64,000 nt of DNA from Rhodopseudomonas julia. GTDB taxonomy: Bacteria > Pseudomonadota > Alphaproteobacteria > Rhizobiales > Afifellaceae. Position 1 is the first letter of the stretch, and every line of letters begins with the position of its first letter. Below the pieces are notes generated by a model, which was not told the origin of the DNA, made no database searches, and was given only the letters and a program-made list of their open reading frames with translations. A program made the position numbers and the translations under genes. The stretch is from positions 434,001-498,000 of the forward strand of contig NZ_JAUSUK010000002.1 of assembly GCF_030813515.1 (NCBI RefSeq), written 5' to 3'. Positions 4,089-38,758 of the stretch are shown here, in pieces.

Positions 4089-5033
4089 ATGTTCGTCGTC
4101 TGCGGCGAGGCGCTCTGGGATCTTTACGGTTCGGACAAGGGCGAAGGGCTCTCCTTTGACGCGCGCATCGGCGGATCGCCTTTCAACGTCGCCGTGGGGC
4201 TCGCCCGCCTCGACCAGGAGGCGGCGCTTTTCACGGGACTTTCGACGGATCTTTTGGGCGAGAAGCTCTTTGCGGCGCTCAAGACCGAAGGTGTGGAGAC
4301 CGGATTTCTTCTGCGCTCCAGCCGACGCACGACCTTGAGCCTGGTGACGCTCGGCAAAGACGGCTCGCCCTCTTACGCGTTTTATGGAGACGGGGCGGCG
4401 GACCGGGCCGTCAACCTTTCCGATCTGCCGGTCTTCAGTCGCGACATCTGGGGCGTGCATGCCGGCTCGTTTTCGCTTGTCACCGAGCCGATCGGCACGA
4501 GCCTCCTGTCGCTTCTGGGGCGAGAGGCGGGCGAGCGGCTGGTGACGCTCGATCCCAATGTGCGGCTCAATGTGGAGCCGGATCTCGCGCTCTGGCGCGA
4601 ACGCCTGGACGCCTTCCTGCCGACGACGGATCTCGTCAAGGTGAGCGAGGAGGATCTGGGGCTTCTTTATCCGAGCGCGCCGCCGGCCGAGACCGCCGAG
4701 CGCTGGCGCGCCGCGGGCGCGACCCTGGTCGTCGTCACCTATGGCCGGGAAGGGGCGGAAGCCTTCGGTTCATTCGGACGCGTGTCCGTCAAAGGCTCCG
4801 AGGTCGACGTGGTCGATACGGTCGGCGCTGGCGACAGCTTCATGGCCGCCTTGATTGCCGGCCTGGCGGAGCGCTCGACGAAATCGCGCGAGGCGCTTTC
4901 CAGGCTGCGCCGGGACGAGGTGGAGGCGCTCATCGCCTTTGCCACTGAGGCCGCCGGCATCACCTGCGGACGCCGCGGTGCCGATCCGCCCCGGCGGGCG
5001 GAGCTTGGTGCGGCCGCCAGCCAGGACGGGTGA
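4089..5033 (+). CDS. Fructokinase (PfkB family)
   Basis: 314 aa cytoplasmic sugar kinase. The N-terminal substrate region (FVVCGEALWDLY, GGSPFNVAVGLARL) and the C-terminal PfkB signature DTVGAGDSFMAALIAG with the catalytic Asp are intact. The family phosphorylates fructose to fructose 6-phosphate with ATP. The role fits the neighbourhood: the smo/mtlK operon 2 kb downstream oxidises sorbitol and mannitol to fructose. GGGAG lies eight bases before the ATG. It is divergent from the ROK repressor and probably under its control. Another PfkB substrate, such as 2-keto-3-deoxygluconate, cannot be excluded, but the sequence near GGSPFNVA is typical of fructokinases. Confidence 0.88.
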   Translation: MFVVCGEALWDLYGSDKGEGLSFDARIGGSPFNVAVGLARLDQEAALFTGLSTDLLGEKLFAALKTEGVETGFLLRSSRRTTLSLVTLGKDGSPSYAFYGDGAADRAVNLSDLPVFSRDIWGVHAGSFSLVTEPIGTSLLSLLGREAGERLVTLDPNVRLNVEPDLALWRERLDAFLPTTDLVKVSEEDLGLLYPSAPPAETAERWRAAGATLVVVTYGREGAEAFGSFGRVSVKGSEVDVVDTVGAGDSFMAALIAGLAERSTKSREALSRLRRDEVEALIAFATEAAGITCGRRGADPPRRAELGAAASQDG

Positions 5034-5098
5034 TGGAGGTTTTCGGGCGGCCGTTTTACGGGCGGTCCGGGGATGGCCGGCCGCCGGAGATCGGCAAA

Positions 5099-5350
5099 TC
5101 AGGCGCGGGAGCGGCCGTAGGCACCCTCATAGGCCACGCGGCGGATCTCGCTGCGGTCAAAGCCCATATCGGCGAGGTCGCGGTCACGATAGCCTTCCAG
5201 CTCGCGAACGAGTTCGCCGTACTGGTAGCGCTGCTTCACGGATGTCCAGGCGCGCGAGAAGAGGGTGCGGGCGCCTTCGCCCATCGATACGGTCGAGGCC
5301 GGTGCGCTGAGGGGCCCGGAGGCGGGGCGTGCGAGAGTGAGGGTCTTCAT
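5099..5350 (-). CDS. DUF1127 (YjiS-like) small protein
   Basis: 83 aa. The C-terminal half carries the DUF1127 signature: an aromatic/basic helix, then LVRELEGYRDRDLADMGF followed by RSEIRRVAYEGAYG. These short Arg-rich proteins are common in alphaproteobacteria; some family members take part in small-RNA-linked carbon and phosphate adaptation. No specific role can be read here. It is divergent from a LysR regulator. The ribosome site reads GGAGAAGCCAC just before ATG. Confidence 0.88.
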   Translation of the reverse strand: MKTLTLARPASGPLSAPASTVSMGEGARTLFSRAWTSVKQRYQYGELVRELEGYRDRDLADMGFDRSEIRRVAYEGAYGRSRA

Positions 5351-5644
5351 GTGGCTTCTCCATCATGGGACGGCAGGGGGAATTGCCGTCTGAAATTCCG
5401 GTTCGTGTGCCGGCAGCATGCCTTCGGTGGCTTTTGCCGGCCTGTGTTGCAGTGCGGTGGTTGCTTGCAGCCGTTCTTTGGTGCGCTTCCACGAACCCGT
5501 TTTTATCTTGATGGTGTCGGGCCCTACGCCGACATTGCGGCGCATCATAATCGTGCTGTGTTGCACAAATAATGACGGCGGAGGCGCTTGCGAAGGCGTC
5601 CTTGGGTCAAAGGGGCTGTGACCCAGCTGCAAAGCCGAGGTGTG
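5351..5644. other. Divergent promoter region, DUF1127 / LysR
   Basis: 294 bp without a gene. An AT-richer patch at about 5536-5575 contains the small dyad TGTG-TTG-CACA, a plausible LysR-type site, although no T-N11-A box can be assigned firmly. GAGG lies about six bases before the LysR ATG at 5645. Confidence 0.4.
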
Positions 5645-6556
5645 ATGGAACTTCCGAGCCAGATGATCCTGTTTGCGACCGTGGTCGAGAGTGAGAGCTT
5701 TTCGGCGGCCGCCCGCTCGCTCGGCCTGACGCCATCGGCCGTCAGCCGGCAGATCGGCTTTCTGGAGGATCGCCTGAAGGTAAGGCTTCTCAACCGCAGC
5801 AAGCACGGCCTGTCGCTGACAGAGGAGGGGCGCGCCTTCTACGAGCGCTGCGCCGATCTCGCGGCCAGGGTGTCGGAGGCGGAAAACCTTGCCACCGCGA
5901 TCAGCGGTCAGCCGGTCGGGGTGTTGCGGGTCGCAGCCACCGTCGCCTTCGCCAAGGCGCAGCTTCTGCCGATCATGCCGGAGTTCATGGCGCGCTATCC
6001 GGAGCTCAAAGTCTCGCTCGAGGTGACGGACCGCCCGATCGATCTCGCGGCGGAGGGGATCGACGTCGCCATCCGCTTCACCGAGCAGGTGGAGGACAGT
6101 TTTGCGGTGGCGCGCAAGCTTGCCCGCAACCGGCGGGTGATCTGTGCCGCGCCGGCCTATCTCAAGCGCGCCGGCACGCCGACGACGCGCCAGGATCTCG
6201 CGCATCACAATTGCCTGCGCCTGTCGACGGTGACGCGCTGGAACGACTGGCATCTGGAAGGGGCGGAGGGGACCGATCCCGTTCCGCTCACCGGCAATTT
6301 CGAGGCCAACAGCGCCGATGCGATCTATCACGCGACGCTTTCAGGCCTCGGGATCGCCCGGCTTTCGACCTATCTCGTCGGCGAGGATATCAAGGCCGGG
6401 CGGCTCGTCAGGCTCCTGCCGGATTATGCCGACGACGGGTCGGACATTCTGGCGCTCTATTCGGAGAAGCGGAATCTGTCGCCGCGGGTGCGCGCGTTCA
6501 TCGATTATCTGAGTGCACATTTCGGCAGCGTGCCGCCCTGGGAGCGCGAAGAATAG
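5645..6556 (+). CDS. LysR-family transcriptional regulator
   Basis: 303 aa. The N-terminal winged helix (residues 1-60, FSAAARSLGLTPSAVSRQIGFLEDRL) is classic LysR. The effector domain (about 88-295) contains IDVAIRFTEQ and resembles the GcvA/DsdC-like group that often acts on divergent genes. The start at ATG 5645 is chosen because GAGG precedes it and residue 1 then aligns with the family (MELPSQMILFATVVES). It is divergent from the DUF1127 gene and upstream of the smo operon, but the smo promoter carries a ROK-type site rather than an obvious LysR site. Its target is unknown. Confidence 0.9.
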   Translation: MELPSQMILFATVVESESFSAAARSLGLTPSAVSRQIGFLEDRLKVRLLNRSKHGLSLTEEGRAFYERCADLAARVSEAENLATAISGQPVGVLRVAATVAFAKAQLLPIMPEFMARYPELKVSLEVTDRPIDLAAEGIDVAIRFTEQVEDSFAVARKLARNRRVICAAPAYLKRAGTPTTRQDLAHHNCLRLSTVTRWNDWHLEGAEGTDPVPLTGNFEANSADAIYHATLSGLGIARLSTYLVGEDIKAGRLVRLLPDYADDGSDILALYSEKRNLSPRVRAFIDYLSAHFGSVPPWEREE

Positions 6557-30144: not shown

Positions 30145-31209
30145 TCAGACGGAGAGCCGGTCGCCCTCCCTGGCATCGAAGAGATGGACGGAACCGGCGT
30201 CGATGGTGACTTTCAATTCGTCGCCCGGGCCCGCCGAGATGCGCTCGCGGAAGACGCAGACGACCTCCGTCTCGCCGAGGAAGGCGACGACATGGGTCTC
30301 CGAGCCCGTCGGTTCGACCACTTCCACGCGGAGCGTGGTGTCGCCGCCGAGCTGAAAGTGCTCCGGACGAACGCCGTAGATCATCTCGCGCCCGGGTTCC
30401 GCATTGCCGGGCTCTGCGATCGGCAGGCGCTGACCGTCGCCGGTGACGAAGATATTGCGGTCGTTCGCGTCGAGGGTGCCCGTCACCATGTTCATCGCCG
30501 GCGAGCCGATGAAGCCCGCGACGAAGAGGTTTTCCGGCCGGTCGTAGAGATCTAGCGGTGCACCGACCTGCGCGACGATGCCGTCATGCATGACGACGAT
30601 CTTGTCGGCCATGGTCATCGCCTCGATCTGGTCGTGGGTGACGTAGACGGTGGTGGTCTTCAGGCGCTGGTGGAGGTTCTTGATCTCCGTGCGCATGGAG
30701 ACGCGCAATTTGGCGTCGAGGTTCGACAAGGGTTCGTCGAAGAGGAAGACCTGTGGCTTGCGCACAATGGCGCGGCCCATGGCGACGCGCTGGCGCTGGC
30801 CGCCGGAGAGCTGGCGCGGATAGCGGTCGAGGAGATGGGAGAGACCGAGCATTTCGGCCGCAGGCGAGACGAGGCTCTCGATCTCCTTCTTGGAGACGCC
30901 CTTGAGCTTCAAGGAGAAGCCCATGTTCTCCGCCACCGTGATGTGGGGGTAGAGCGCGTAGTTCTGGAACACCATGGCGATGTCGCGCTCTTTGGGCGGC
31001 AGCGCGTTCACGACGCGATCGCCGATTAAAATCTCGCCGGCGGTGATGTGTTCCAGACCTGCCAGCATGCGCAGGAGTGTGGACTTTCCGCAGCCCGAAG
31101 GGCCGACGAGCACGACGAACTGGCCTTCCTCGATGTCGATCGAGACGCCGTGCAACACTTCCACCGATCCGAACGCCTTGCGGACGTCGCGGAACGTCAC
31201 CGATGCCAT
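30145..31209 (-). CDS. CUT1 ABC transporter ATP-binding protein (UgpC type)
   Basis: 354 aa. Walker [10 protein letters not shown] (about 36-44), [37 protein letters not shown] and YVTHDQIEAMTMA are intact; a TOBE domain follows from about 235. It is the first gene of the operon, so order is ATPase, binding protein, two permeases, racemase. GAGGAAACGT precedes ATG. A GntR-like palindrome lies 23 bp upstream of the start. Confidence 0.92.
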   Translation of the reverse strand: MASVTFRDVRKAFGSVEVLHGVSIDIEEGQFVVLVGPSGCGKSTLLRMLAGLEHITAGEILIGDRVVNALPPKERDIAMVFQNYALYPHITVAENMGFSLKLKGVSKKEIESLVSPAAEMLGLSHLLDRYPRQLSGGQRQRVAMGRAIVRKPQVFLFDEPLSNLDAKLRVSMRTEIKNLHQRLKTTTVYVTHDQIEAMTMADKIVVMHDGIVAQVGAPLDLYDRPENLFVAGFIGSPAMNMVTGTLDANDRNIFVTGDGQRLPIAEPGNAEPGREMIYGVRPEHFQLGGDTTLRVEVVEPTGSETHVVAFLGETEVVCVFRERISAGPGDELKVTIDAGSVHLFDAREGDRLSV

Positions 31210-31231
31210 ACGTTTCCTCGCCTTGGATTAT

Positions 31232-31245
31232 TAATGTATTCGTTA
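31232..31245. promoter_or_regulatory. Candidate GntR/FadR operator, site C
   Basis: TAATGTATTCGTTA matches site B at 11 of 14 positions and is itself an imperfect palindrome (TAA...TTA). It lies between a TATAG-like -10 region and the start of the minus-strand ATPase gene, a repressor position. Confidence 0.45.
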
Positions 31246-31453
31246 TGGCTATAGTGGCGGCTCTTCCGGCGCTGTGCAACCGTTTCCTGTTTGATGAGGA
31301 AAACGATCAAAAAACCTTGGAAATGCTGGAAGATGACGCCGCGGAAGCGGGCGGCAGAACGCTTCTGGCGCTCTGTGAGGGTCCACGTATACGCACTTTG
31401 TGCGATGTCTTCCGGGCGTGGCGGGGCGCTGCGAGGGATGTTGTGGCGGAGCG

Positions 31454-32545
<1,092 letters not shown>

Positions 32546-32693
32546 TCTCCGGGCGGCCTTTCCAGATGATTGGCACCGGCTTTTCGGGGAGGCAACCGCG
32601 CAGGCGCGGATTTAACGGACGGAATCGCCGTGCGCGCCGGCAAAGGCGCCGGGACATCGCTTTCCCGGATACGACGAAGGGTGGTCTTGCGTT

Positions 32694-32722
32694 ATCGCTG
32701 TATAGTTGAACTATATATCGGA
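32694..32722. promoter_or_regulatory. ModE-type operator
   Basis: ATCGCTGTATA-GTTGAAC-TATATATCGGA matches the ModE palindrome (ATCGNTATATA-spacer-TATATANCGAT) closely: arms CGCTGTATAGTT and AACTATATATCG differ at two of 12 pairs. It lies 34-62 bp before the modA-like start. In other bacteria, molybdate-loaded ModE represses mod operons from such sites. No modE gene is in the window. Confidence 0.8.
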
Positions 32723-32755
32723 GAATTTCTCATCGAGCGGGGGGGCAGCTGAGAA

Positions 32756-33532
32756 ATGGCGAAGAGACATTTTCTGCCAGGAGTGGCGCTGGTTCTGGCA
32801 CTGGTTCTGGTGCTCGTGGCGCCGCGGGCCATGGCCGACGAGCTTCATGTCTATGCCGGCGCCGGGCTGCGCCAGCCGGTGAGTGCGATCGCCGATCTGT
32901 TCAAGGCGGAGACCGGCACGAATGTCGTCATCGAATTCGGCGGCTCCGGCCAGATCATGGCGCGCTACGCGGAGGCGGGCGAAGGCGACGTCTTCGTTCC
33001 GGGCTCGACCTTCTACAGCGACAAGCTCGAGGCAAAGGGGCTCGTGCGGTCGATGCGGCTTCTCGTCGAGCATGGGCCGGTGCTGGCGGTGACGAAGGCG
33101 AAGGCGGGCGAGATCACAACGTTCTCCGATCTAGCCAAGCCGGGCGTCCGCCTCGGGCTCGGCGATCCGGAGGCGATGGCGCTGGGGCGTACGGCGGAAG
33201 ACATTCTCAAAGCCTCCGGCATGGCAGAGAAAATCCTGCCGAACGTCACCGTGCGGGCGGCGACAGTGAAACAGCTCGCCCTTTACGTGTTCGACGGCGA
33301 TGTCGATGCGGCGATCATCGCGGCGAGCGACGCGGCGATGAACCCGGACAAGGTCACTGTCGTTGCGATCCCGAAGGAATGGTACACGGTCGAGATCGTG
33401 CCGGTGGTGGTTCTGACGACCGCCAAGGAGCCCGACGCGGCCGAGGCCTTTGCGGAGAAACTCGCCTCCGACGAAGGGCGCGCGGTGTGGAAGCGCTTCG
33501 GCTTCACGCCGGTCGCAAGCGACGGCGAATGA
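32756..33532 (+). CDS. Molybdate/tungstate-type ABC transporter substrate-binding protein (ModA-like)
   Basis: 258 aa. Signal peptide MAKRHFLPGVALVLALVLVL, cleavage near AMA-DE. Then ELHVYAGAGLRQPVSAIADLF and the ligand region FGGSGQIMARYAEAGEGDVFVPG, which is the ModA/WtpA oxyanion-binding pattern. The ModE-like box upstream and the ModD domain downstream support molybdate or tungstate. The stop overlaps the permease start (ATGA). Discrimination between molybdate and tungstate is not possible from sequence alone. Confidence 0.85.
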   Translation: MAKRHFLPGVALVLALVLVLVAPRAMADELHVYAGAGLRQPVSAIADLFKAETGTNVVIEFGGSGQIMARYAEAGEGDVFVPGSTFYSDKLEAKGLVRSMRLLVEHGPVLAVTKAKAGEITTFSDLAKPGVRLGLGDPEAMALGRTAEDILKASGMAEKILPNVTVRAATVKQLALYVFDGDVDAAIIAASDAAMNPDKVTVVAIPKEWYTVEIVPVVVLTTAKEPDAAEAFAEKLASDEGRAVWKRFGFTPVASDGE

Positions 33533-34323
33533 GCGGGCGGGCGCCACGGCTGCCCATCCCGCTCGATGTGCTGCTTGCGGTTCCGCTTCTCATCATTGCC
33601 GCTGCAATCGGGCTCGTCATTCTCGGGCTCGGGGCAAGGCTCACGCCGCACGAACTGTTTCGGGCGCTGAGCGAAGCGGAGACGCTGTTTGCGCTGCGCC
33701 TGTCGTTTTCGACGTCGCTGATCTCGCTTGCTCTTTCGCTTCTTCTCGGTGTGCCGGCCGCCTATCTTCTGGCGCGGCGGCGGTTCCGGGGCATGGCGCT
33801 CGTCGACACGCTTCTCGACCTGCCGCTCGTCATGCCGCCGCTCGTTGCCGGGCTCGGGCTCCTCTTCGTCATCGGGCGCTCCTCGCCGCTGCCGCCGCTT
33901 GCGGAAATCGGGGCGGTGTTCCTGTTCTCGCCGGCCGGCATGGTGCTCGCCCAGACCTTTATTGCAACGACCATCATCGTCCGGAGTGCGAAAGCGGCGT
34001 TCGAGGCGGTGGATCCCGGCTATCGCGACGTCGCCGGGACGCTCGGTCTCACACCCGCGCGCGTCTTCTTCGCCATCGATCTGCCGCTGGCCGCTGGCGG
34101 CATCGTCTCCGGTGCCATTCTCGCCTGGGCGCGGGCGCTCGGCGAATTCGGCGCGACGCTGATGGTCGCCGGCGCGACGCGCTTTCGCACCGAAACCTTG
34201 CCGATGGCGATCTATCTCAACATGGCGACGGGCGAGGTTGAGGTGGCGGTCGCCTGTGCGCTGGTGCTGCTTGTGACCGCTTTCGCACTGCTTCTCATGA
34301 TGCGCGGGCTGAAACGGGCATGA
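33529..34323 (+). CDS. Molybdate/tungstate-type ABC transporter permease (ModB-like)
   Basis: 264 aa, six membrane segments. The permease loop RDVAGTLGLTPARVFFAIDLPLA and ARALGEFGATLMVAG are characteristic of ModB/CysT permeases. Start at ATG 33529 overlapping the upstream stop by four bases; its own stop overlaps the next start by four bases, so the three genes are translationally coupled. Confidence 0.88.
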   Translation: MSGRAPRLPIPLDVLLAVPLLIIAAAIGLVILGLGARLTPHELFRALSEAETLFALRLSFSTSLISLALSLLLGVPAAYLLARRRFRGMALVDTLLDLPLVMPPLVAGLGLLFVIGRSSPLPPLAEIGAVFLFSPAGMVLAQTFIATTIIVRSAKAAFEAVDPGYRDVAGTLGLTPARVFFAIDLPLAAGGIVSGAILAWARALGEFGATLMVAGATRFRTETLPMAIYLNMATGEVEVAVACALVLLVTAFALLLMMRGLKRA

Positions 34324-35912
34324 CGGGCGGGCTTACCCTCGAAGGCGTACGCAACGGCATTCTGCACGACGTCGATTGCCGGATCGAACGCGGCGCCTTC
34401 GTCACGCTGATCGGGCCGTCGGGGGCCGGGAAATCCACGCTTTTGAAGGCGATCGCCGGGCTCGTGCGCCATGCCGGCCAGATCCTGTGGGGCGGGGCGG
34501 CGATCGAGAGAGCGGCGCCGCATGAGCGGGCGATCGGCTATGTGCCGCAGGATCTCTGCCTCTTCCCGCATCGCAGCGTCGCCGGCAACCTTCTGCTCGC
34601 CCTGGAGCGGCAGCGGCTCGATCCGGCGGCGCGGCAGGCGCGGATCGCGAAACTCCTGGAACAGTTGCGGATCGGCCATCTCGCCAAGCGGCGCCCAACA
34701 CGGATCAGCGGAGGCGAGAAGCAGCGCGTGGCGCTTGCCCGTGCTTTGATAGGTGCGCCGTCGCTTCTCCTTCTCGACGAGCCGTTCAGCAGCCTCGACG
34801 ATCAGACGCGCCGGCATCTGCAAGGCGAGGTGAAGCGGCTCCACGACGAGTTCGGCCTGACGACGCTCATGGTCACGCACGACCTCGATGAAGCCTTCGC
34901 GCTCGGCGACGAGGTGCTGGCGATGCACGAGGGGAGGCTGAAGGCCGCAGCGCGTCCGGCTTCCCTCGAAGATGTTCGTGGCGATCATGGCGGGTGCGGG
35001 CTCGTGCTGCCGGGAAAGAGGCTCCCGACGGTTTCGCCTGCAGTGCCTCTCCCCAGTCAGAAGGAATCCCACATGCCTGATCTTTCCGATGCCGATCTCA
35101 ACCGGCTTGTCGCGCAGGATGCGCCTTATGGGGACCTCACCACGCAGGCGCTTCAGATCGGCGGGAAGGCCGGGCGCATGAGCTTTGCCGCCCGGGATAA
35201 GATGGTTCTGTGCGGGTCGGAAGAGGCGGCGCGGATGATCCGGTGCGCGGGCGGCGAGATCGCTTCGGCGTTGCCGAGCGGCTCGAAGATCGCGGCGGGG
35301 ACGGTGTTCTTGAGTGCGGTCGGGCCGGCCGCAGCGCTGCACAAGGCCTGGAAGGTGTCGCAGACGCTCGTCGAATACGCCTCCGGCATCGCCACGCGCG
35401 CCAACCGGATCGTCGAGGCGGCGCGGGCGGAGGCGCCGGAGATCGTCGTCGCCTGCACGCGCAAGAATTTTCCCGGCACCAAGGAGATTTCCATCAAGGC
35501 GGTGATGGCCGGCGGGGCCGGCATCCACCGGCTCGGACTGTCGGAAACGATCCTGGTCTTTCCGGAGCATCGCGTGTTTCTGGGCGACGATATGGCGGGG
35601 TGGATGACGGCGCTGAAGCGGCGGGCGCCGGAGAAGAAGATCGTGGTGGAGAGCGATGACCTCGACGAGGCCGAGGCGCTCGCGAAGGCCGGGGCCGATG
35701 TCATCCAGCTGGAAAAGCTCGAGCCAGAGGCGGTTGCGGAGATGATGCGGCGGGTGGCCAGCCTGACGCCGCGGCCGGTGGTGGCGATGGCCGGAGGCGT
35801 CAACGAGGCGAATGCGGCGCGCTATGCGGCGACGGGCTGCGACGTGCTGGTGACGTCTGCACCCTATTTCGGCCGGCCGAGCGACGTGAAGGTCACGATC
35901 GAACGCGGGTGA
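34320..35912 (+). CDS. Molybdate-type ABC ATPase fused in frame to ModD
   Basis: 530 aa in one uninterrupted frame. Residues 1-215 are an ABC ATPase (GPSGAGKST, YVPQDLCLFPH, ISGGEKQRVALARA, LLLDEPFSSLD, VTHDLDEA) lacking the usual ModC C-terminal MOP domain. Residues 252-530 are ModD, a nicotinate-nucleotide pyrophosphorylase-like protein often linked to mod operons (APYGDLTTQAL, ACTRKNFPGTKEISIKAVMAGG, VVAMAGGVNEANAARYAATG). ModD starts with an internal ATG at 35073 preceded by AAGGAA, so a separate 279-aa ModD may also be made. The biochemical role of ModD is not settled. Confidence 0.85.
   Translation: MTGGLTLEGVRNGILHDVDCRIERGAFVTLIGPSGAGKSTLLKAIAGLVRHAGQILWGGAAIERAAPHERAIGYVPQDLCLFPHRSVAGNLLLALERQRLDPAARQARIAKLLEQLRIGHLAKRRPTRISGGEKQRVALARALIGAPSLLLLDEPFSSLDDQTRRHLQGEVKRLHDEFGLTTLMVTHDLDEAFALGDEVLAMHEGRLKAAARPASLEDVRGDHGGCGLVLPGKRLPTVSPAVPLPSQKESHMPDLSDADLNRLVAQDAPYGDLTTQALQIGGKAGRMSFAARDKMVLCGSEEAARMIRCAGGEIASALPSGSKIAAGTVFLSAVGPAAALHKAWKVSQTLVEYASGIATRANRIVEAARAEAPEIVVACTRKNFPGTKEISIKAVMAGGAGIHRLGLSETILVFPEHRVFLGDDMAGWMTALKRRAPEKKIVVESDDLDEAEALAKAGADVIQLEKLEPEAVAEMMRRVASLTPRPVVAMAGGVNEANAARYAATGCDVLVTSAPYFGRPSDVKVTIERG
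35061..35075 (+). promoter_or_regulatory. Internal ribosome site for a separate ModD
   Basis: AAGGAATCCCAC-ATG lies in frame within the ATPase-ModD gene. The spacing is good, and the following residues MPDLSDADLNRL are a normal ModD N-terminus, so the two domains may be made both fused and apart. Confidence 0.5.
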
Positions 35913-36049
35913 GGGTGTTCTGGCGGTCGCGTCCAGCGCCGTGGCAGGTCCGCAGCGAGGTCTTGTCCCATTGCGTTCAGTCGGTTCGGTCCGCTAGCTG
36001 ACGCGATGCACGACTTTCTTTGCGCCATGCCAGTCCTGCGGGCGAAGCG

Positions 36050-37069
36050 ATGACGGATCCACAGAATGCGAGCGATCTGAGGCCCAAACGCATCCTCGTT
36101 CTGGGCGCGACTGGCACGATCGGTCGTGCCACGGCGAGGGCGCTCGTTGCCCGCGGCCATGAGGTCGTCTGCTTCGTGCGGCCGAAAGCCGGTGTCGGCG
36201 GGGCGCTGACGCCGGAGGGGACGGCGAAGCTTCTGGAGGGGGCAAAACTGCGCTTCGGCGAGGTGACTGACCCGGCTTCGCTCAGACGCGACGGGTTTTC
36301 CGGCGAGCCTTTCGACGTTCTCGTCTCCTGCCTTGCCTCGCGCACCGGCGGAGAAAAAGACGCCTGGGCGATCGATTATCAGGCGCATTCCGACGCCCTT
36401 GCCGCGGCGCGGGCGGCGGGTGTGAGCCAGATGGTGCTTCTGTCGGCGATCTGCGTGCAGAAACCGCTTCTCGCCTTCCAGCAGGCGAAACTCGCCTTCG
36501 AGAAGGAATTGATCGCGTCGGGGCTCACCTATTCGATCGTGCGGCCGACGGCCTTCTTCAAATCGCTCGCCGGCCAGATCGACCGGCTGCGCGCCGGAAA
36601 GCCCTATCTTCTCTTCGGCGACGGGCGGCTGACGGCGTGCAAGCCGATCAGCGACGACGATCTCGGGCGCTATCTCGCCGAATGCGTGGATGACGACAAC
36701 CGCCACGACAAGATCCTGCCGATCGGCGGGCCGGGCGATGCGGTGACGCCGATCGAACAGGGGGAAAGGCTGTTTCAGCTTCTGGGTAAGGAGCCGAAAT
36801 TCAAGCATGTGCCGGTGGCGCTGATGGATGCGATCATCGCCGGGCTGAGCGGGCTTGGCAGGTTCTCGCCGAAGCTGCGCGCCAAGGCGGAGCTCGCCCG
36901 GATCGGGCGCTATTACGCGACGGAATCGATGCTGCTCCTCAATCCCGAGACCGGGCGCTACGACGCGGCGGCGACGCCGTCCTACGGCACCGAAACGCTG
37001 TTCGATTTCTATGCGCGGCTCGTCACAGGCGAAGCGCGCGTGGAACGCGGCGACCACGCAGTGTTTTGA
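36050..37069 (+). CDS. bciA: Divinyl (proto)chlorophyllide 8-vinyl reductase, BciA type
   Basis: 339 aa, NADPH-dependent extended SDR. Rossmann motif VLGATGTIGRATARAL (residues 18-33); the middle region carries CVQKPLLAFQQAKLAFE and YSIVRPTAFFKSLAGQ, then FGDGRLTACKPISDDDL, all strongly typical of BciA. The enzyme reduces the 8-vinyl group of divinyl chlorophyllide during (bacterio)chlorophyll synthesis. Start at ATG 36050; an ATG ten codons earlier is possible. No other photosynthesis gene is in the window, so it is separate from any photosynthesis cluster here. It indicates a phototroph or a recent descendant. Confidence 0.88.
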   Translation: MTDPQNASDLRPKRILVLGATGTIGRATARALVARGHEVVCFVRPKAGVGGALTPEGTAKLLEGAKLRFGEVTDPASLRRDGFSGEPFDVLVSCLASRTGGEKDAWAIDYQAHSDALAAARAAGVSQMVLLSAICVQKPLLAFQQAKLAFEKELIASGLTYSIVRPTAFFKSLAGQIDRLRAGKPYLLFGDGRLTACKPISDDDLGRYLAECVDDDNRHDKILPIGGPGDAVTPIEQGERLFQLLGKEPKFKHVPVALMDAIIAGLSGLGRFSPKLRAKAELARIGRYYATESMLLLNPETGRYDAAATPSYGTETLFDFYARLVTGEARVERGDHAVF

Positions 37070-37213
37070 CGGCCAGTCCGGCTTTTTTCCGCTTCCCCGG
37101 CAGGCGGGCTTTGCCGCCACGCTTTACAGGCGCTCGGCGATGACGGAACGATCGTCGCGATGAGATGCGCGCACGAGACCGATCGCTTTGCGGAAAGCCC
37201 ATAGGAGACGCAC

Positions 37214-38500
37214 ATGAAAGTGCTCATCCTCACCTATGGATCGCGCGGCGATGTCGAGCCCTATGTGGCGCTGGGCCTCGGGCTCGAGGCGCATGGCCAT
37301 GACGTCGTGCTGGCGACGAGCCGGCGGTTTCAGGGCTTCGTCGAGGCGCATGGATTGCGCTTCGGGCCGCTCAGCGACGCGCTTCTTGCGATCCTCGACA
37401 CCGATCAGGGCAAGGCGCTGTTGGAGAAGGGCGGCGGCCTCTTTCAGGTCGTCAAAAGCAGCCTCGAGATGTGGCGGCAGCTGAAGCCCTTGCAGCAGGC
37501 GCTGATACAGGAATGCTGGGAGGTTGCCCGGGCGTTTGATCCCGAGATCATCGTCTATCATTCGAAAGCGGCCGCTGCGCCCTCGATCGCCGACAAGCTC
37601 GGCTGCGCCTGCGTGCTCGCGACGCCCGTGCCGATGCATGTGCCAACGCGGGCTTTCCGCTTCGCGATTCTGCCGCGACTGCCCCTGGGGGGCTGGGTCA
37701 ACAAGGCGAGCTACGGGCTCACCAATGGCGTCGTGAAAAGGGTTTTCGGGCCTCTCATCCAGGATTTCAGGGGCTCGCTCGATCTGCCTGCGATCAAGAG
37801 CTACGAGCCGCTGACGCGAAGCGACGGGAGCGATATCCCGGTGCTGCACGGCTTCAGCGAGGTGGTGCTGCCGCGCCCCGAGGACTGGCCCGAGAGCGCC
37901 CATGTCACCGGCTATTGGTTTCTGCCCGACGACGCCGATTGGACGCCGCCCGATGCGCTTGCCGCATTTCTCGCGGCCGGCCGGCCGCCCGTCTATGTCG
38001 GCTTCGGCTCGATGTCGGTGCGGCAGCCGGAGACGCTCGCCCGGCTCTCGGTGGAGGCTTTGGTCGCCGCCGGCGTGCGAGGCATTCTGGCGAGCGGCTG
38101 GGGGGCGTTGAAGGCCGAGGACTTGCCGGAGAATGTGCTCCTCATCAAGGAGGCGCCGCATTCCTGGCTGTTTCCCAAAATGGCGGCGATCGTGCATCAC
38201 GGCGGTGCGGGAACGACGGCCGCCGCGCTTCGAGCCGGAAAGCCGTCGCTCGTCGTGCCGTTTTTTGGCGATCAGCCGTTCTGGGGCGCGCGGGTGCATG
38301 CGATCGGCGCAGGCCCGAAACCGATCCCAAGAGGAAAGCTCACCGCGGGGCGGCTTGCGGCGGCCCTTCGCGTGATGACGCAATCGCAGGAGATGCGGGA
38401 GAGGGCGGCGGAGATTGGGGCGCTGATCTCCAACGAGGACGGTGTGGCGGTGGCGCGGGGGCTCATCGAGAGCGCGGGGGCCGGGCCCGCTCGCCGGTAA
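37214..38500 (+). CDS. GT1-family glycosyltransferase (UGT/sterol glucosyltransferase-like)
   Basis: 428 aa, GT-B fold. The N-terminal MKVLILTYGSRGDVEPYVALGLGLEAHGHDV binds the acceptor. The C-terminal donor site has VYVGFGSMSVRQPE and the signature HHGGAGTTAAALRAGKPSLVVPFFGDQPFWG. Relatives glycosylate lipids, sterols, hopanoids, carotenoids or macrolides. AGGAGACGCAC precedes ATG. It is next to bciA, so a carotenoid or membrane lipid acceptor is possible, but nothing here fixes it. Confidence 0.88.
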   Translation: MKVLILTYGSRGDVEPYVALGLGLEAHGHDVVLATSRRFQGFVEAHGLRFGPLSDALLAILDTDQGKALLEKGGGLFQVVKSSLEMWRQLKPLQQALIQECWEVARAFDPEIIVYHSKAAAAPSIADKLGCACVLATPVPMHVPTRAFRFAILPRLPLGGWVNKASYGLTNGVVKRVFGPLIQDFRGSLDLPAIKSYEPLTRSDGSDIPVLHGFSEVVLPRPEDWPESAHVTGYWFLPDDADWTPPDALAAFLAAGRPPVYVGFGSMSVRQPETLARLSVEALVAAGVRGILASGWGALKAEDLPENVLLIKEAPHSWLFPKMAAIVHHGGAGTTAAALRAGKPSLVVPFFGDQPFWGARVHAIGAGPKPIPRGKLTAGRLAAALRVMTQSQEMRERAAEIGALISNEDGVAVARGLIESAGAGPARR

Positions 38501-38566
38501 GTTCGGGGGGATTTTCGCACGAGGTCTTGGCGGAGGCGGTGGCGGGAGATAGATCCCGCGTCAAAA

Positions 38567-38758
38567 GGAGGACGACCTCCCCCCAGCCTGGTTTGGCCCC
38601 AGCCTGGTTTGGCCCCAGCTTGGGATGCCCCAGCTCGGGCTGCCCCAGCTCGGGCTGCCCCAGCTCGGGCTGCCCCAGCTCGGGTTGCCCAAGCTCGGGT
38701 CGCCCATTTCGGGCTGCAATGTCCAGGACGGCCTGGCCCATCAATCGTGGAGGGGCTC
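38567..38758 (+). ncRNA. Guanidine-II (mini-ykkC) riboswitch with an expanded linker
   Basis: Two hairpins with the diagnostic ACGR tetraloop and GG-ACGR-CC closing pairs: P1 GGAGG-ACGA-CCTCC (38567-38580) and P2 CCAGG-ACGG-CCTGG (38723-38736). P2 ends 12 nt before GGAGGGG (38749-38755) and the GTG start (38759) of a SugE/Gdx guanidinium exporter, the canonical gene for this riboswitch. The P1 3' arm CCTCC is also complementary to GGAGG of the ribosome site, which offers a switch: P1 formation on guanidine would free the site. The linker of 142 nt is much longer than the usual short one and is filled with a 15-bp tandem repeat. Confidence 0.85.
38581..38717 (+). repeat. 15-16 bp tandem repeat, nine units, inside the riboswitch linker
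   Basis: Two 16-bp units CCCCAGCCTGGTTTGG, one CCCCAGCTTGGGATG, then CCCCAGCTCGGGCTG three times exactly (38628-38672), CCCCAGCTCGGGTTG, and two decayed units. Each typical unit can fold as CAGC-TCGG-GCTG, a four-pair mini-hairpin, so the linker may be a chain of small hairpins that keeps P1 and P2 close. Confidence 0.9.

Follow-up and report, generated by a model that had tools for sequence, protein, structure and literature searches.

The window, that is, the whole stretch of 64,000 nucleotides analysed here, contains three consecutive forward-strand genes that appear to form an operon for a molybdate-type importer. The first (modA2; 32756..33532, +) encodes a ModA-like substrate-binding protein that scores 106.3 bits against TIGR01256 (cut-off 62.5) and whose PDB matches are ModA proteins. 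It shares an ATGA overlap with the gene of a ModB-like permease of the TIGR01581 type (modB2; 33529..34323, +), which passes the cut-off of that model (245.4 bits, cut-off 210.3) and narrowly misses the one of the modB model TIGR02141 (180.3 bits versus 182.6). A further ATGA overlap leads into a single open frame (34320..35912, +) of 530 aa and a calculated 56.3 kDa, in which no stop separates an ABC ATPase from ModD. Pfam assigns residues 15-156 of its product to ABC_tran and residues 272-514 to QRPTase_N/C, and the NCBIfam ModD model TIGR01334 matches residues 255-527 with 286 bits (cut-off 178.85), which bears out the original prediction of one continuous frame for both proteins. The product can be divided into the ATPase domain (residues 1-216; 34320..34967, +; PF00005, 122 bits), a translated, spacer-like linker that includes the ribosome site of modD (residues 217-251; 34968..35072, +), and the ModD domain (35073..35912, +), which as a possible free protein would have 279 aa and 29.3 kDa and on its own scores 288.7 bits against TIGR01334. 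The masses of 55 and 29 kDa initially guessed for the two products are thus near the calculated ones. As the two domains are read without an intervening stop, ribosomes that complete the ATPase should continue into ModD, so that the ATPase can only be obtained in fused form, unless it is cleaved after translation. An oxidoreductase-like gene of the NAD(P)-binding kind comes after the fusion gene.

The ATPase carries the motifs GPSGAGKST, SGGEKQR and LLLLDEP (at residues 32, 130 and 149), which we take to be Walker A, signature and Walker B, respectively, as well as VTHD. Its score against the ModC model TIGR02142 (182 bits) stays below the cut-off of 285.05, and its top models are PhnT2, WtpC and sulfate ones, each of them also below its own cut-off. 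A canonical modE-modA-modB-modC cluster lies elsewhere in the genome (contig C1, about 48-52 kb), its modC (about 51.9-52.1 kb) scoring 419 bits and having a TOBE domain; the locus in the window is therefore a second importer, whose molybdate-type substrate is inferred from the family models. No TOBE/MOP domain (PF03459) was found by Pfam in the fusion, as had been claimed, whereas the accompanying idea, that ModD stands where a MOP domain was lost, is not supported, as the canonical ModC is encoded elsewhere and relatives without a fusion are short too. In Proteus mirabilis (NZ_OL790811), where an importer of the same type is found (ModA, ModB and ATPase with 44%, 50% and 43% identity, respectively), the ATPase has 207 aa and its own stop, being too short for a MOP domain, and no match to ModD was detected in the 10.6-kb stretch considered. 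Similarly, the second-best PDB match, the molybdate/tungstate ABC ATPase 2onk, has 240 residues and is unfused. Considering both proteins, the short ATPase is not due to the fusion, and the MOP-less form is probably native to this type of transporter. The permease itself is rare: at E <= 1e-40 the 327 genomes of the order sample yielded it in 2, both of them carrying the fusion, and the cut-off of TIGR01581 was exceeded in one of 180 genomes of a phylum sample, namely that of the window. Relatives of modA and modB were also observed on Azospirillum plasmids (63% identity each in one record examined), and no ATPase was found in the 10.6-kb stretch around modA/modB of the Azospirillum brasilense plasmid p4 (L116:4152-5726).

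ModD accompanies molybdenum genes and has, to our knowledge, no established activity. Its fold family is that of the quinolinate phosphoribosyltransferase NadC, and the domain in the window reaches 144 bits against the NadC model TIGR00078, below the cut-off of 198.4. Of the NadC positions, it retains TRK, HR and Glu, while the lysine of LIKENH is replaced by Phe (VFPEH) and LDN reads LEK, with the aspartate changed to Glu; the catalytic meaning of all these positions is presumed here. The consensus of ModD relatives has LVFxxH and QxEK at these sites. True nadC genes are present elsewhere in all five Afifella genomes compared (322-333 bits; 332.7 in that of the window), indicating that ModD is not the NAD enzyme and that NAD synthesis does not depend on it. 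Where ModD is listed in PMC2700814, it appears merely as a possible quinolinate phosphoribosyltransferase. On the Escherichia coli plasmid pF16EC0470-1 (L117:3960-10386), annotation places ModD in a cluster with an iron-type binding protein, a permease, an ATPase, a methyltransferase and a TonB-dependent receptor, which suggests that ModD relatives may also serve the uptake of metal chelates.

The same fusion occurs in Afifella marina DSM 2698, the closest genome with a name, so that the window would come from another Afifella species; the A. marina frame also has 530 aa, with 92% identity and neither stop nor indel. A sequencing error hiding a stop between the domains, which had been named as the finding that would overturn the fusion, is thereby ruled out. 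To learn how far the fusion extends, as had originally been proposed, modD was sought with TIGR01334 at E <= 1e-50 in overlapping samples of the order, class and phylum, where it was found in 41 of 397, 5 of 385 and 3 of 398 genomes, respectively. Among the 46 distinct genomes with modD, most of whose loci were examined over about 1.5 kb upstream, an ATPase lies within 1.5 kb upstream and on the same strand in five, and in two, both Afifella, it shares one open frame with modD. In the five Afifella genomes, modD is fused in that of the window (G000) and in A. marina (G001), unfused in G002 and G004, and absent from G003. Three further genomes have long open frames leading into modD, but none of them has an ATPase in that frame, and they were rejected as independent fusions: in G037 the ATPase uses a different frame and is closed by a TGA of its own, in G171 the gene before modD is modA-like and ends at its own stop, and in G345 the open frame contains no ATPase. 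In Campylobacter gastrosuis (L085:4001-4806) ModD is matched in two pieces, in different frames and with a 4-base overlap, and this modD is possibly frameshifted or split.

Operons of the modABCD kind, such as those of Rhodobacter capsulatus and of alphaproteobacterial plasmids like p1318-4 of Roseomonas marmotae, resemble the window in having molybdate-type importer genes near modD, and differ from it in that ATPase (annotated as modC) and ModD are separate on p1318-4 and similar plasmids. Among the matches listed (best 5000 records), at least 15 plasmid records contain 80% or more of the query, in 14 cases as two joined pieces, and ATPase and modD are separate in the records with gene annotation, three of which were examined in detail. 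For R. capsulatus, ModD is described as a separate gene in PMC6925177, and a search of open-licence papers found no ModC-ModD fusion.

The join between the two domains was explored by nucleotide comparison of G000 and G001. In the ATPase 45 of 648 bases differ (9, 6 and 30 at the first, second and third codon positions) and in ModD 60 of 837 (11, 7 and 42), a third-position bias from which both domains are judged to be under protein-level constraint. The linker differs at 21 of 105 bases (20%), distributed as 4, 9 and 8, and no codon-position constraint was detected among these substitutions. Four nearby intergenic regions accumulated 140 substitutions and 7 indel events between the same genomes; at that rate, 21 substitutions would come without an indel with a probability of about 0.35, and 21 random substitutions in the linker would yield no stop with a chance of 0.58. 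The linker frame thus seems conserved no better than expected under neutrality, so that its persistence gives no evidence for a needed fusion. In addition, a random stretch of 35 codons with the base composition of the linker has a 37% chance of being open, and hence the in-frame run-on is by itself not improbable. In an AlphaFold2 model (14-row alignment; mean pLDDT 81.5), residues 215-253 fall below 50, while both domains are well predicted, residues 1-210 of the ATPase ranging from 74 to 93 per ten-residue block; the linker is accordingly predicted to be disordered, the fusion consisting of two domains joined by a floppy tether.

Regarding a free ModD, the proposal that modD has its own ATG preceded by a well-placed AAGGAA is confirmed: the Shine-Dalgarno-like AAGGAA (35061..35066, +) is separated by 6 nt from the ATG at 35073, and it occurs at equal spacing before modD in A. 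marina and G002. The motif is rare, AAGGA being present at a suitable distance in 3 of the 338 internal in-frame ATGs of window ORFs with 300 aa or more (counted with overlapping antisense ORFs and with the ATG of ModD), while the calculated pairing strength is ordinary, as 49 of these 338 equal or exceed ATG 35073 in their pairing with the 16S tail. The free modD of G002 is 94% identical to ModD of the window, and the homology of both sequences restarts at window position 35057, 16 bases 5' of the modD ATG, with AGAAGGAATCCCACATG identical. Since this modD is unfused, the ribosome site belongs, or once belonged, to a gene standing alone, which makes the internal start at 35073 with its AAGGAA a credible one. 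Concerning the suggestion that both products may be made, the frame for the fusion exists and free ModD is plausible in view of the unfused gene of G002 with the same ribosome site, both products as such being deduced from the DNA.

G002 also informs on the history of the locus. It has no modA-modB-ATPase genes at this place, no permease match at E <= 1e-40 was found in it, and modD is kept in the same position. The tree (G000,(G001,G002)), with support 87 and rooted by G003 and G004, and the sequence beside its modD, which retains about 210 bp of the antiporter-side region of A. marina, favour an ancestor with fused or adjacent genes, from which G002 lost the importer. The number of differences in ModD runs against a simple loss in G002 (43 between G000 and G002, 60 between G000 and G001), and a further caveat is that about 140 bp 5' of the G002 modD match nothing in G001. 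An insertion immediately upstream of modD was considered as the alternative origin. The gene that gives this region of A. marina its name, located between the protease gene and modA (L091, about 4806-5795, -) and absent from the window, is called antiporter-like here from its sequence, the name being our assumption.

Upstream of the operon, an inverted repeat resembling the ModE (Mo) box, CGCTGTATA-N7-TATATATCG (32696..32720, no strand assigned), ends 35 nt 5' of the modA start. It has one mismatch to the symmetric box, while the box at the same place in A. marina has none and a changed spacer. A strict ModE-like pattern matched the 3.79-Mb genome once, at this site, and its reversed control did not match; since the pattern was written after the site had been seen, the single match reflects rarity and not an independent prediction. 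In form it corresponds to the E. coli consensus ATCGNTATATA-N6-TATATANCGAT as given in PMC545781, with a spacer of 7 here versus 6 there. Independent support is provided by the box of A. marina and by similar boxes that precede the canonical modE of each of the five Afifella genomes (3, 3, 3, 1 and 2 mismatches from G000 to G004). The free modD of G004, in another gene context, is preceded by a box with 2 mismatches that ends 34 nt 5' of its start (L092:4933-4957); no ModE-like box was found upstream of modD in G002. In a general scan covering 1.5 kb upstream of 35 modD loci, with the box of the two fused operons beyond its reach and 11 later modD loci outside it, boxes with up to 3 mismatches occurred at 3 of 35 modD loci, at none of 47 control loci and in none of 700 shuffles; one of these three stands some 1 kb before its gene, and the enrichment near modD in general is weak. 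Scans at the operon found neither a sigma-70-type promoter nor a terminator, and Rfam RNA elements gave no match at 31000-37500. The predicted box suggests that the operon is probably under ModE control. Such control of modD is not new, since a ModE-binding site is already predicted for modDABC of Geobacter sulfurreducens (PMC545781, Table 6; PMC2700814), which like the window joins modD and the importer, its ModD being, unlike that of the window, separate and encoded by the first gene of the operon (PMC545781). In other alphaproteobacteria, NifA sites upstream of modD are described in PMC4999443.

Taken together, we consider it rather probable, if far from assured, that the window holds a second, ModE-controlled molybdate-type importer operon, modA2-modB2-(ATPase::modD), in which the join is a tolerated run-on and free ModD is also made. 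Under this explanation, the three importer genes would be joined by their ATGA overlaps, and the frame of the short, MOP-less ATPase, having no stop, would be read on into modD across some 35 spacer codons. Every ATPase made would then be a 56-kDa protein that holds a flexibly tethered ModD on the cytoplasmic side of the importer, some free ModD (29 kDa) would probably be started at 35073, and both domains would act independently. Molybdate scarcity would lead the operon to supply importer and ModD together, the covalent join being a by-product of the absent stop codon and not a new activity. ABC ATPases function as dimers and quinolinate phosphoribosyltransferases dimerise as well; as both partners are dimeric, the join should cause little steric difficulty, and no function of the fusion itself is required. 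Against this explanation stand a ModB2 just under the modB cut-off and an ATPase well under that of modC, the missing box at modD of G002, and the negative scan for a sigma-70-type promoter.

A functional join, with tethered ModD acting on or sensing the incoming oxyanion at the transporter exit in place of MOP, appears unlikely. It would fit an ATPase that is untranslatable without ModD, a frame kept in two species despite 21 linker substitutions, and the ModE-like boxes at the fused operon and at the free modD of G004; nonetheless, the linker lacks codon-position constraint, the intergenic indels and stop gains predict conservation of the frame often enough, MOP-less ATPases also exist unfused, and modD of G002 has no importer genes here. 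Neutral evolution of the linker is compatible with the data and not rejected by them, while a required function of the fusion would make both the linker and G002 unexpected. The most far-reaching version, in which ModD is normally a non-covalent cytoplasmic partner of the importer and in Afifella became fixed to the ATPase so as to receive, modify or gate the oxyanion at the exit, replacing regulation by MOP, is highly doubtful. Hence, of the original suggestion that the fusion links ModD to oxyanion transport and hints at its function, the link is strengthened by the ModE-like boxes upstream of the operon and of the free modD of G004, whereas the fusion as a functional clue is weakened, because codon-position constraint is not seen in the linker, the frame is retained no better than under neutral drift, and of the three close relatives one has modD here and not the transporter.

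That the importer carries another oxyanion (tungstate, a sulfate-like one or other), with a ModD link that is not about molybdenum, seems quite unlikely: the best models of the ATPase, all below their cut-offs, and a ModB2 just under the modB cut-off would agree with it, and it is opposed by ModA2, which passes the modA cut-off and has ModA proteins as PDB relatives, and by the ModE-like box of the operon. Very improbable, finally, is a locus that chiefly yields free ModD from the internal start, with an upstream ATPase poorly translated or non-functional, as the weaker ribosome site of the ATPase (-3.1 versus -5.7 kcal/mol for ModD) and the retention of modD alone in G002 might suggest, since the ATPase, ModA2 and ModB2 frames are intact, the ATPase has a strong third-position bias, and ATGA overlaps can account for translation without a strong site.

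For the tolerated run-on, the value of the fusion is that it ties ModD to importer expression, and it may be little beyond two adjoining genes run together. Even so, a natural fusion together with ModE-like boxes at the fused operon and at a free modD would point to ModD working at the importer, or close to it, under molybdate shortage, and the three close Afifella genomes, two with the fusion and one with modD alone, offer a natural comparison. As a separate observation, short peptide repeats are encoded at 38463-38744 of the window in overlapping open frames, of the PELGQ type on one strand and of the APARA type on the other.
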